NCBI RefSeq assembly: GCF_007859855.1
Contig: NZ_SJPK01000004.1
Span: 186,001-250,000 of the forward strand
DNA from: Allorhodopirellula solitaria
Lineage (GTDB): Bacteria; Planctomycetota; Planctomycetia; Pirellulales; Pirellulaceae
DNA: 64,000 bases
Direction: 5' to 3'
The notes under the pieces were generated by a model. The model did no database searches, was not told the DNA's origin, and saw only the letters and a list, made by a program, of their open reading frames with translations. The position numbers and the translations under genes are program-made. Each line of letters opens with the position of its first letter. Position 1 is the stretch's first letter. Shown in pieces: positions 39,847 through 63,084 of the stretch.

Positions 39847-40047
39847 ATGGCAGAGGGTACGATCAAACGAGTCACCGATAAGGGATTTGGATTCATCGAC
39901 ACTGGAAGTAGCAAAGACTTGTTTTTTCACTCGTCCAGTCTTCAAGGAGTTAATTTCGATGACCTCCGCGAAGGACAACGAGTGACCTACACCGAAGGCC
40001 GGGGCCCCAAGGGTCCTTGCGCTGAGAACGTCTCACTCGCTGAGTAG
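39847..40047 (+). CDS. cold-shock-domain (CspA-type) nucleic-acid-binding protein
   Basis: A 66-residue single cold-shock domain. RNP1 is KGFGFID, RNP2 is DLFFHSSSL, and the start MAEGTIKRVTDKGFGFI is typical of CspA-like RNA chaperones. It binds single-stranded RNA or DNA and melts structure. The C-terminus VTYTEGRGPKGPCAENVSLAE is normal. AGGA lies about 10 nt before the ATG. It is divergent from the phosphotransferase, and a near-1-kb gene-free stretch follows. Confidence 0.95.
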   Translation: MAEGTIKRVTDKGFGFIDTGSSKDLFFHSSSLQGVNFDDLREGQRVTYTEGRGPKGPCAENVSLAE

Positions 40048-41038
40048 TCGACTCGATTATTCGATTCGAGTGGTGGATTCTCAGCGGCCGTGAATCGGAA
40101 CAGTCGCCTCTGTGTGATTGATATGATGAAACGTACTGCCGTTGAAGAAGATACCGAAGTGACGAAAGAACAACGCGGCGCCCTCGGCGTCTATTCGTAG
40201 AACGCCTTCTGAGTTCGCCGCGTGTGGTTGCGGAGCGAGTCGCCTCCTGTGGATTCACCAGAATCCGCGACCGGCGAACCGCTCCTTCCCACTAACCCGA
40301 TCCATTCTCTCTTGGATCGAGACCGCCGTTGGAGCGCGGAAACATCAAAACTGCATTGTGCGTGTCGCTGCGATGTTAAAAGCTGGGTGTTGATGCCAAT
40401 TTTGTGGCAGTCGCCTACCCGGCCGCTTACGCGTCTCACCTCAATGAATCGACAGCCCGGTCAGCCAACGCCAAGCCGCACGAACTCTGGGGGCGAGGAG
40501 AGACTCCATGGTTTCCCAATAGGGGAATAAAAAGGCTCATCCGACGGAAGCGTGCGCAGAGCACAGCGGAAGGTTTTTTGAGGCCTGGCTCTCGTATCCG
40601 ATGATCGTTCAAAAATGCGTCCCTGACGCACAAACGCTCGCCAGGGACCGACAACACCATTGGCGTACGGCTTTTGCAGGGAAACGCTGGCGACCGAGAT
40701 ATCCCTTGCCAAGCCAGCACCTCTGCAGAAGCTCGGCTCCGTTTCTCCCGGCAGTGCCAGTCTAACATTGATAATCACATCCCACAAATAAATCCTTCGA
40801 TACGGGAGCCATGCCTTGAAAACCTCGCGCGCACGCTTCCGTCGGATGAGCCAATAAAAATGCCGTTTGAAAACAAGCTGTCAACACCAACTTCTTAACA
40901 GCCCGTGCTAGGTCCGGTGCATCAACATGGTCGCGAAAGTCCACCCAAGGGCATCGACAAGTATCTATACTGAGCGGTCTGCGCCGAGCCCCAGAAGTCT
41001 CGGTCGCGACCCCGCCCCGCTTCCGTTCACAAGTACGC
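40048..41038. other. 991-bp intergenic region
   Basis: Apart from the miniature transposon at 40526-40860 I see no supportable gene. Open frames here lack a ribosome site and recognisable protein features. A 25-codon frame at about 40121-40198 (MMKRTAVEEDTEVTKEQR) is too weak to call. The ~180 bp before 41039 probably hold the promoter of the large PVC haem protein. Confidence 0.6.
40526..40860. mobile_element. miniature inverted-repeat transposable element (MITE) with 8-bp target duplication
   Basis: The core is 319 bp (40534-40852). Its ends are perfect 24-bp inverted repeats: the left arm 40534-40557 begins GGCTCATCCGACGGAAGCGT, and the right arm 40829-40852 is its exact reverse complement. 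The element is flanked on both sides by the same 8 bases, AATAAAAA (40526-40533 and 40853-40860), in direct orientation, as expected of a target-site duplication. Inside the ends a further imperfect inverted repeat continues for ~35 bp (AGGTTTT...GGCTCTCGTATC on the left against AGGTTTT...GGCTCCCGTATC read from the right). It has no transposase frame, so it would need a transposase supplied elsewhere. An 8-bp duplication with GG ends is compatible with ISL3- or IS1595-like enzymes, but that is a guess. Confidence 0.85.
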
Positions 41039-44000
41039 ATGTCACGCCAACTTATCTCACCCCGCCTGTTTGCCGCCCTGACAATCACCATACCGGTCCT
41101 ATGGGGCGGCCCCGACCTGCCTGCCGCCGATGGGAAAACGGGGGCTCCATCCTCTGCCGTCAAACATCCCACGCTGCAGTACGATCGCTGGAGCGGTGAG
41201 ATCAATGTGCCCGATCCCGTGGCGATCAGTGTGGACCACCGCGGGCGCGTATTCGTTACGCAAACCCGTCGCCGTAAGATCCAAGATCTCGATATTCGCG
41301 CCAATCGCGATTGGGTTGCCGACGACATCGGACTGCAGAGCATTGAAGACAAGCTGGCGTTCTATCACGACAGGCTGAGGATCGGAGGCGATCAAGCCGA
41401 GCAAGCAAAGCACGTGACGGATGTCAACAAGGATGGCCAGTTTGATTGGCGTGACCTGACTGTGATCGGGGAAGTGATCTACCGACTCAGTGACGAGGAC
41501 GGCGATGGCAAAGCCGACGAAATCGTCGTCTTCGATGACGATTTCAAAACGGAGGTCACCGGCATCGCTGCGGGCGTGATGGCTTGGGGTGACGATGTCT
41601 ATGCTACCGTCGCACCGGACCTGTGGCGGTTGACCGATACCGATGACGACGGTGTTGTCGATGAGCGAAATATCATCGCGACCGGTTTTGGACTGCACAT
41701 CGCCTATGCCGGACATGACATGCATGGGCTGACCGTCGGCCCCGATGGCAAGATCTATTGGTCAATCGGCGACAAAGGCATCAACGCCACCAGCAGTGAG
41801 GGGCGCCATTATTTCTATCCCAACCAAGGCGGCGTGATGCGCTGCAATCCCGATGGCAGCGATTTCGAAGTCTTCGCGCACGGATTGCGAAACGTGCAGG
41901 AGATCGCGTTCGATTCCTACGGCAATCTCTTCGGCGTCGATAACGACGCCGACCAAAAAGGCGAACATGAACGATTCGTCGCCATCGTCGAGGGCATGGA
42001 TGCGGGCTGGCGGTCGCACTACCAATTCCGCGGCGGAGAATACAATCCGTGGACCGACGAGAACCTTTGGAACCTGCCGCGAAAACACCATCCGGCGTAC
42101 ATCATTCCACCTATCAGTCATTACGTCGACGGTCCCGCTGGTTTCAAATTCAACCCCGGCACAGCACTGGGTCCCGCCTACGCGGACTACTTCTTTTTGA
42201 CGTCGGCGCCCAACGGGAACCAGTATGCGTTCCAGGTCCGCTCCGCAGGCGATTCCTTTGAGATGTTCAACGACCATCTCATCGGCAAGGGGCCGGCGAT
42301 TGTCGGCCTTGCCTTTGGTCCCGATGGAGCCCTGTATGGTGCGGACTGGGACGGCGGCTATCCACTCGATCAAAAAGGGGCCGTGATCCGAATCGATGTT
42401 GAGAAGTCGCTGCGGCATCCACTGCGGCAAGAGGTGGCTGCACTCTTAGCCCGAGGCATGGGCGATCGCTCGATCGCTGAGCTGAGTGAACAGTTGACGC
42501 ATCCCGATATGCGGATTCGCCAAGCCGCTCAGTTTGAATTAGTCAAGCGAGAGGACACTGATGTCTTCCAGGCCGTACTCGAATCACCGGACTCCGACGT
42601 GTTTGCCAAACTGCATGCGGTCTGGGGAATGGGGCAACTTGCTCGTGCGGACCATCAGGTAGCGTTCGCCAGTATCGTGGCGGCCCTCAAGGACATCTCT
42701 CCCGTTGTACGAGGCCAGGCCGCGAAAACTTTTGGCGAAACCAATGAGACCGGCGGGGAACCATTGATTCCACTACTCGGCGATGATGATCTGCATGTAC
42801 GTGTTCATGCGGCACTCGCTCTGGCGAGATGCCCCGTCGAGGCAGCGACCGAAGAGCTGCTCTCCGCAGCCAGCCGTTTGCAGGCGGATCAGCACTACTT
42901 GCGGCATGCGATTGTCTCGGCGTTGGCTGCCTGTGCGTCCAGTCCCACATTGGCCGACCGACACGACAGTGATCACGAGATGGAGCGGCTATGCGCTGTG
43001 CTGGCACTGCGCCGTCAATCGAGTCCGCTGGTCAGTGTCTATCTCGCAGATCCCTCGGACTGGATCGCCACGTCGGCGGCTCGCGCCATTCATGATGACC
43101 TTTCGATCATGGACGCGCTGCCCGCACTCGCCGAGGCACTGTCAACGAACGCGAAACGCAGCGAAGCGTTCTGGCGACGCAGCATTAACGCGAATTATCG
43201 AATCGGGACCGCAGAGTGCTTCCGCCGTGTCCTCGAGTTCGCATCACGCGGCGACGTCAACGCCGAGATGCGGGTAGCGGCCTGTGACGCGGCTGCCAAT
43301 TGGATGCTTCCGCCCGCGCTCGACCGAGTCGAAGGCCGCCGGCGAGAGCTCCCTGTGACGCAGCGCGCGATCGATAGCGAGACTGCGGAAGCGCTACTTG
43401 CCGAGCTCGCCAGCGGCGGCAATGACCGCGTGCAGTCGGCCAGCATCGCTGCGGCGAGCAAGCTCCGCATCACGCTGTCACCGGTTGCGCTGCAGAGTAT
43501 TTTTCACACGGAGTCACTCGCCACGCCGTTGCGCATCGAAGCGCTGCGATCGCTCGTCCGTTCAGCTAGTGATGATGCTGAAACGCTGTGCTTGGAAGCG
43601 ATCGGGTCGTCGCAACAGCAGCTGCAGTTGGCAGGTGTGAAGTTGTTGACAGAGGAGTTTCCTCAGCAGGCGACTGCCGCGATCAAGAAGGCGTTCGAGC
43701 AGACGAAGTTCCTCCGAGTTCGCCAGGCCAGCATCCAGGCACTTGGCGTGCTCGAACAGCCCAGTAGTCGGCAATGGCTGACTAGCTTGGCCGACGAGGT
43801 GCTCGGTGGCAGTCTCGATCCCCAACTGCATCTAGACGTCGTCGACGCACTACAGAGGGCCATCGCCAGCGGCGTCGGTGAGAGCAACGATGGGCTCGCC
43901 CTACGGCAGCGAGCCGATCAACTGCGAGACGCCGCAGCCGCTCGATCCCAGGACAACCCGGCCAATGCGAAATACGTGTACTCACGCGATGGCGGCGATG

Positions 44001-62651: not shown

Positions 62652-62677
62652 GCACCAGCGAAACAACAGAACGCGCA

Positions 62678-62993
62678 GTGGATGAGGCGACGAGCTGCCA
62701 GTTACCCACAATTTTGCTCCCCCGTGTGCTTGTCACACGGGAAGCGACGTTTTGAAATTAGAAAACCGCGGCATCAACACGCGTTCCCCTGTCAGCTTGT
62801 CTGACAGGACACCAAGCCGACAAACTTTGCTCTCATGCGGGGCAAGCCCGCACGGGATCGGGGTGAATGCTCCATCTTTATCTAATCACAAAACGGAGAT
62901 TCCTGTCAGACAAGCTGACAGGGGATCTGGTTTAATGGGTAATCAACAGCAGGCGACGAGTTCTGTCTTTCGGGACTCGTCGCCTCGTCCACT
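62678..62993. repeat. hairpin cluster with constant CTTGT/CTTGC loops, bounded by an 18-bp inverted repeat
   Basis: The outer arms 62678-62695 and 62976-62993 are inverted repeats (17 of 18 bases) reading AGTGGAYGAGGCGACGAG. Inside are four hairpins. At ~62722 the stem is CCCGTGTG/CACACGGG with loop CTTGT. At 62786-62809 the stem is CCTGTCAG/CTGACAGG with loop CTTGT. At ~62836-62852 (minus strand) the stem is TGCGGG/CCCGCA with loop CTTGC. At 62901-62924 the 24-bp unit of 62786 recurs as an exact reverse complement. The right end also forms GGCGACGAGT/ACTCGTCGCC (62952-62984). Thus the stems differ but stay paired, while the loop is constant. The 433-bp gap between valS and mobA contains no gene. 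Confidence 0.8.
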
Positions 62994-63084
62994 ACATTCA
63001 GCGCGGATTATTGATTCGCGGTTGTAAAGCGTCGCGTGGTCATTCAGTAGCGCCCATTATCGCTCGGATCCATTGTTGAAAACC

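Follow-up and report, generated by a model that had tools for sequence, protein, structure and literature searches.

A high-copy MITE family with ISL3-type ends in the planctomycete Allorhodopirellula solitaria

A 319-bp intergenic element of Allorhodopirellula solitaria belongs, with high confidence, to a high-copy MITE family whose members carry no more than the end sequences to which an ISL3-family transposase would bind, and which were presumably mobilised in trans. The element was noticed in a window of 64 kb (G000:C4:186001-250000, G000 being the host genome) and followed it through the host genome and its relatives.

Structure of the window copy

The element occupies positions 40526-40860 of the window, where a core of 319 bp (40534-40852) is flanked on both sides by AATAAAAA. 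The core begins with 24 bases, GGCTCATCCGACGGAAGCGTGCGC, that return as an exact reverse complement at its other end. This architecture had been claimed in the original prediction and was confirmed from the sequence. A search of both strands of the window located AATAAAAA at 40526 and 40853 and at no other place, and exact inverted repeats of at least 18 bp exist at only three places in the window. The imperfect subterminal inversion noted earlier is also real, since a gapped alignment pairs the arms to approximately position 65/54. The reading frames of the core encode no transposase. Its neighbours are a 66-aa cold-shock-like frame (39847-40047) on the left and, on the right, a large frame starting at 41039. 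Its features are:

40526..40533, no strand: left 8-bp target-site duplication AATAAAAA; the 8-bp register is confirmed across the family
40534..40852, plus strand: MITE core, 319 bp (family consensus 318 bp)
40534..40557, plus strand: left 24-bp terminal inverted repeat; its 24 bases are the same as one end of an ISL3 element of G007 (L080)
40558..40598, plus strand: left subterminal imperfect inverted repeat; contains the IS110-family insertion position used in other copies
approximately 40582/40583: equivalent of that IS110-family insertion position in the window copy, after GGTTTTTTGAG
40799..40828, minus strand: right subterminal imperfect inverted repeat, which pairs with the left one in the alignment
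40829..40852, minus strand: right 24-bp terminal inverted repeat
40853..40860, no strand: right 8-bp target-site duplication AATAAAAA

Immediately left of the MITE, at 40408-40470, lies a repeat of about 50 bp with five partial matches on contigs C3 and C4 (83-93% identity).

Copy number and target-site duplications

A BLAST search of the MITE against its own genome returned 236 first-look candidates. All 40 copies that were scored, including the query, are full-length, and the 39 others share 95-98% identity with it. We then searched the genome for the 24-bp end, allowing up to 3 mismatches, and obtained 165 forward and 158 reverse matches (323 in total versus 0 for the reversed pattern as control). 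These numbers suggest about 150 copies, an estimate from the ends and not a full count. Given the other copies, a chance origin of the inverted and direct repeats is excluded.

For duplication statistics, contigs C3 and C4 were read completely (1.46 Mb), which yielded 36 paired elements. Most are 317-319 bp long, with rarer forms of 197, 238, 243 and 300 bp; a 93-bp form is found on C1. The 8-bp duplication is perfect in 19 of the 36 pairs and matches at 6 or more of 8 positions in 25, while perfect duplications of 7, 9 or 10 bp were found in none (0/36). Shuffled flanks would be expected to give 0.6 perfect 8-bp pairs. As had been proposed as a check, the duplications differ from copy to copy; nearly all are AT-rich, and the A/T bias is strongest at the centre, where the two central positions are 97% A/T.

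Some MITE-bounded stretches were longer. Two of 612-634 bp (G000:C3:682526-683159 and G000:C3:555403-556014) have extra interior DNA and could possibly represent a larger subfamily; one of them is flanked by a perfect 8-bp duplication, AAAAAATC. Apparent elements of 842, 1438 and 2273 bp were rejected as MITEs containing an IS110-family element (two with an assembly gap), and those of 711 and 712 bp as MITEs containing copies of other repeats. A second, different multi-copy repeat of approximately 250-300 bp with inverted arms (CCCTGTCAGCTTGTCTGACAGG) is present at 62675-63000 of the window, its exact inverted repeat being 62785-62809 / ~62901-62925. It has 56 partial matches elsewhere in C3 and C4, and the MITE-bounded element of 711 bp contains it as well.

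Age of the window copy and an empty site

The perfect ends of the window copy had been taken as a sign of recent insertion. We compared 45 copies of 310-325 bp, three of which, at about 50% identity, were probably mis-oriented and left the median unaffected. The window copy is 97.8% identical to the family consensus (7 differences) versus a median of 98.1%. The consensus ends agree at 23 of 24 bases, and the window copy is the sole one of the 45 with 24/24, owing to one T-to-C difference at position 3. Since the consensus itself has 23/24 and the identity of the window copy is close to the median, perfect ends are no evidence of youth: the copy is of average age, and the earlier claim is unsupported.

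An empty site was detected in the sister species G007 for another copy, G000:C10:108624-108941, whose duplication AAAAGTAA / AAGAGTAA matches at 7 of 8 positions. When the flanks of this copy were joined with one target copy, their alignment to G007 spanned the junction, and AAAAGTA is present just once at this site in G007. The empty site proposed for the window locus itself was not recovered; all of 40323-40951 is either absent from the nearest relative or has diverged there.

An ISL3 partner in sister species

Two sister species, G005 and G007, harbour 1336-bp elements that are bounded by MITE-type ends and encode a 421-aa ISL3 transposase (NF033550, E 7e-91; PF01610, E 5e-74). The original prediction had called for an autonomous insertion sequence with matching ends, and these elements provide one. 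Perfect 8-bp duplications, CGAGAATA and TTATTTAC, flank such elements in G007 and G005. Among six copies examined, L065 and L124 have duplications matching at 8/8 positions and L080 at 7/8, and three are without a duplication. One end of L080 agrees with the MITE end at 24/24 bases; its other end has GGCTCATCCGAC and AAGCGT in common with it. Terminal sequence and 8-bp duplication are therefore as in the MITE, but the MITE lacks a transposase gene, and its interior does not align with the ISL3 elements (PF01610 / NF033550). Because only about 30-40 bp align, we limit our claim to the ends: the MITE appears to use ISL3 ends, and descent from the 1336-bp element by deletion is not claimed. That the element is a non-autonomous MITE which duplicates 8 bp of its target is supported by the other copies, by this autonomous partner and by the empty site of another copy.

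Similar ends extend beyond the sister species. ISL3 elements of Singulisphaera, Aquisphaera and Desulfatibacillum with resolved ends, whose transposases are 53-57% identical, start with GGTTCATCC, as does an element of a Verrucomicrobia MAG (transposase 47% identical). Two of the distant elements with this start, L290 and L306, have perfect 8-bp duplications. The end GGTTCATCCG is common to several more distant ISL3 relatives; in others at similar distance the end is not clear, or different. The closest named ISL3 loci are those of Aporhodopirellula aestuarii and Rhodopirellula rubra.

A conserved functional intergenic unit, such as a structured RNA, a REP-like element or a protein-binding repeat, would also be found in many copies, and the MITE has strong hairpin potential (MFE approximately -156 kcal/mol), which results from its inverted repeats. 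That such a unit and not a transposable element is present is very improbable, given copy-specific 8-bp duplications, the empty site, ends common to an insertion sequence and an Rfam search that gave no match at E up to 1. The duplications in particular largely refute it, although individual MITE copies may later have been put to use by the host.

In the favoured explanation, an ISL3-family transposase supplied in trans would bind the terminal repeats and move the MITE. Insertion would occur at AT-rich targets via an 8-bp staggered cut, which host repair would convert into the flanking 8-bp duplication. From the sequence comparison, the ISL3 transposase probably acts on the MITE ends.

ISL3 transposases in the host and in other MITE-rich genomes

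No close copy of the 421-aa transposase was found in the G000 assembly, which consists of 62 contigs and breaks at repeats. The family therefore looks orphaned in its host, although assembly gaps could conceal a partner. Since the host assembly shows no close transposase, its MITE copies can probably no longer move, or hardly so. Presumably the MITE spread when the host lineage, or a donor, had such an ISL3 element.

Could ISL3 elements resident in the host mobilise the MITE instead? G000 contains intact genes of the same family on C19 and C34, the two elements with resolved ends, and the C34 copy even has ends of 24 bp flanked by a perfect 8-bp duplication. Their ends are different (GGTTCTTCTCGG), the agreement of GGTTCTTCTCGGAATTTAGTGGCA with the MITE ends is limited to the first few bases, and their transposases, like the nearest ones in G000 generally, are only about 30% identical to that of the end-sharing element. 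We consider mobilisation by these divergent elements unlikely and retain a transposase of the end-sharing type as the preferred source.

MITE-type ends were also counted in G002 (28) and G177 (132). A close ISL3 transposase was found in neither genome; G177 has ISL3 fragments. Two candidate parents were rejected. On C8 of G000 (L119:1724-2686), the left half of a MITE (177 bp) is fused to a gene fragment of a distant ISL3 type. In G177, the ISL3 fragments adjoining MITEs are separate repeats. At L373 and L217 of this genome, an ISL3 gene fragment recurs, each time with a MITE inserted in an identical context, as if a nested insertion had later been copied.

A fixed IS110-family insertion position within the MITE

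In G000, an IS110-family element (L039:1050-3032; junctions in L238-L257) occupies exactly the same position in the MITE at every one of the 20 loci checked. In all 20, its left end directly follows ...TTTTTTGAG of the MITE, and most of the right ends that were read run on into the MITE. The element encodes a 521-aa transposase (PF01548, PF02371), and its longer non-coding region lies 3' (downstream) of the gene, as has been reported for IS1111-type elements (PMC11187229). Contigs of G000 often terminate within it. A candidate guide match of 7 bases, seen by eye, is at about chance level. We lean slightly towards a two-tier arrangement of parasites, in which the orphan ISL3-type MITE, with its roughly 150 copies, would offer an RNA-guided IS110-family element fixed places to land throughout the genome. 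If this is true, the IS110-family element would avoid host genes by landing in MITEs.

Discussion

In Microcystis aeruginosa, a 187-bp MITE has been assigned to ISL3-family transposases (PMC11448079). Like the present one, of about 318 bp, it is short, has ends that begin with GGCTC, generates 8-bp duplications and was matched to ISL3 elements by its ends. The matching end there is a conserved 9-nt repeat (GGCTCTTCG) compared to 24 bp here, and ISL3 elements with those ends reside in the same genome (PMC11448079), whereas no close partner was found in the assembly of A. solitaria. A link drawn, as here, from ends and duplication length alone has a precedent in MITEAba12 and ISAba12, which are unrelated in their interior (PMC6382973); unlike the present MITE, MITEAba12 is 113 bp long with a 9-bp duplication and a co-resident autonomous partner (PMC6382973). 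A BLASTN search of a plasmid collection with the MITE gave no match. Our literature search found no published description of a planctomycete MITE, which is no proof of absence. The present MITE is a new, larger element of the ISL3-linked kind known in Microcystis.

Fixed positions inside repeats are also used by IS1111/IS110-type elements that target REP repeats (PMC1525189) and by IS4321 and IS5075, which target Tn21 ends (cited in PMC11187229). Here, by contrast, the target lies within a MITE, in its subterminal repeat. The MITE thereby joins the list of repeats that serve IS110-type elements as fixed targets, which helps to read the target choice of guide RNAs.

For annotation, about 150 repeats of the host genome can now be labelled. 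This is a clear bacterial case of MITEs that outnumber, and apparently outlive, the source of their enzyme, and related MITEs with similar ends are present in other genera of the planctomycete family to which the host belongs.
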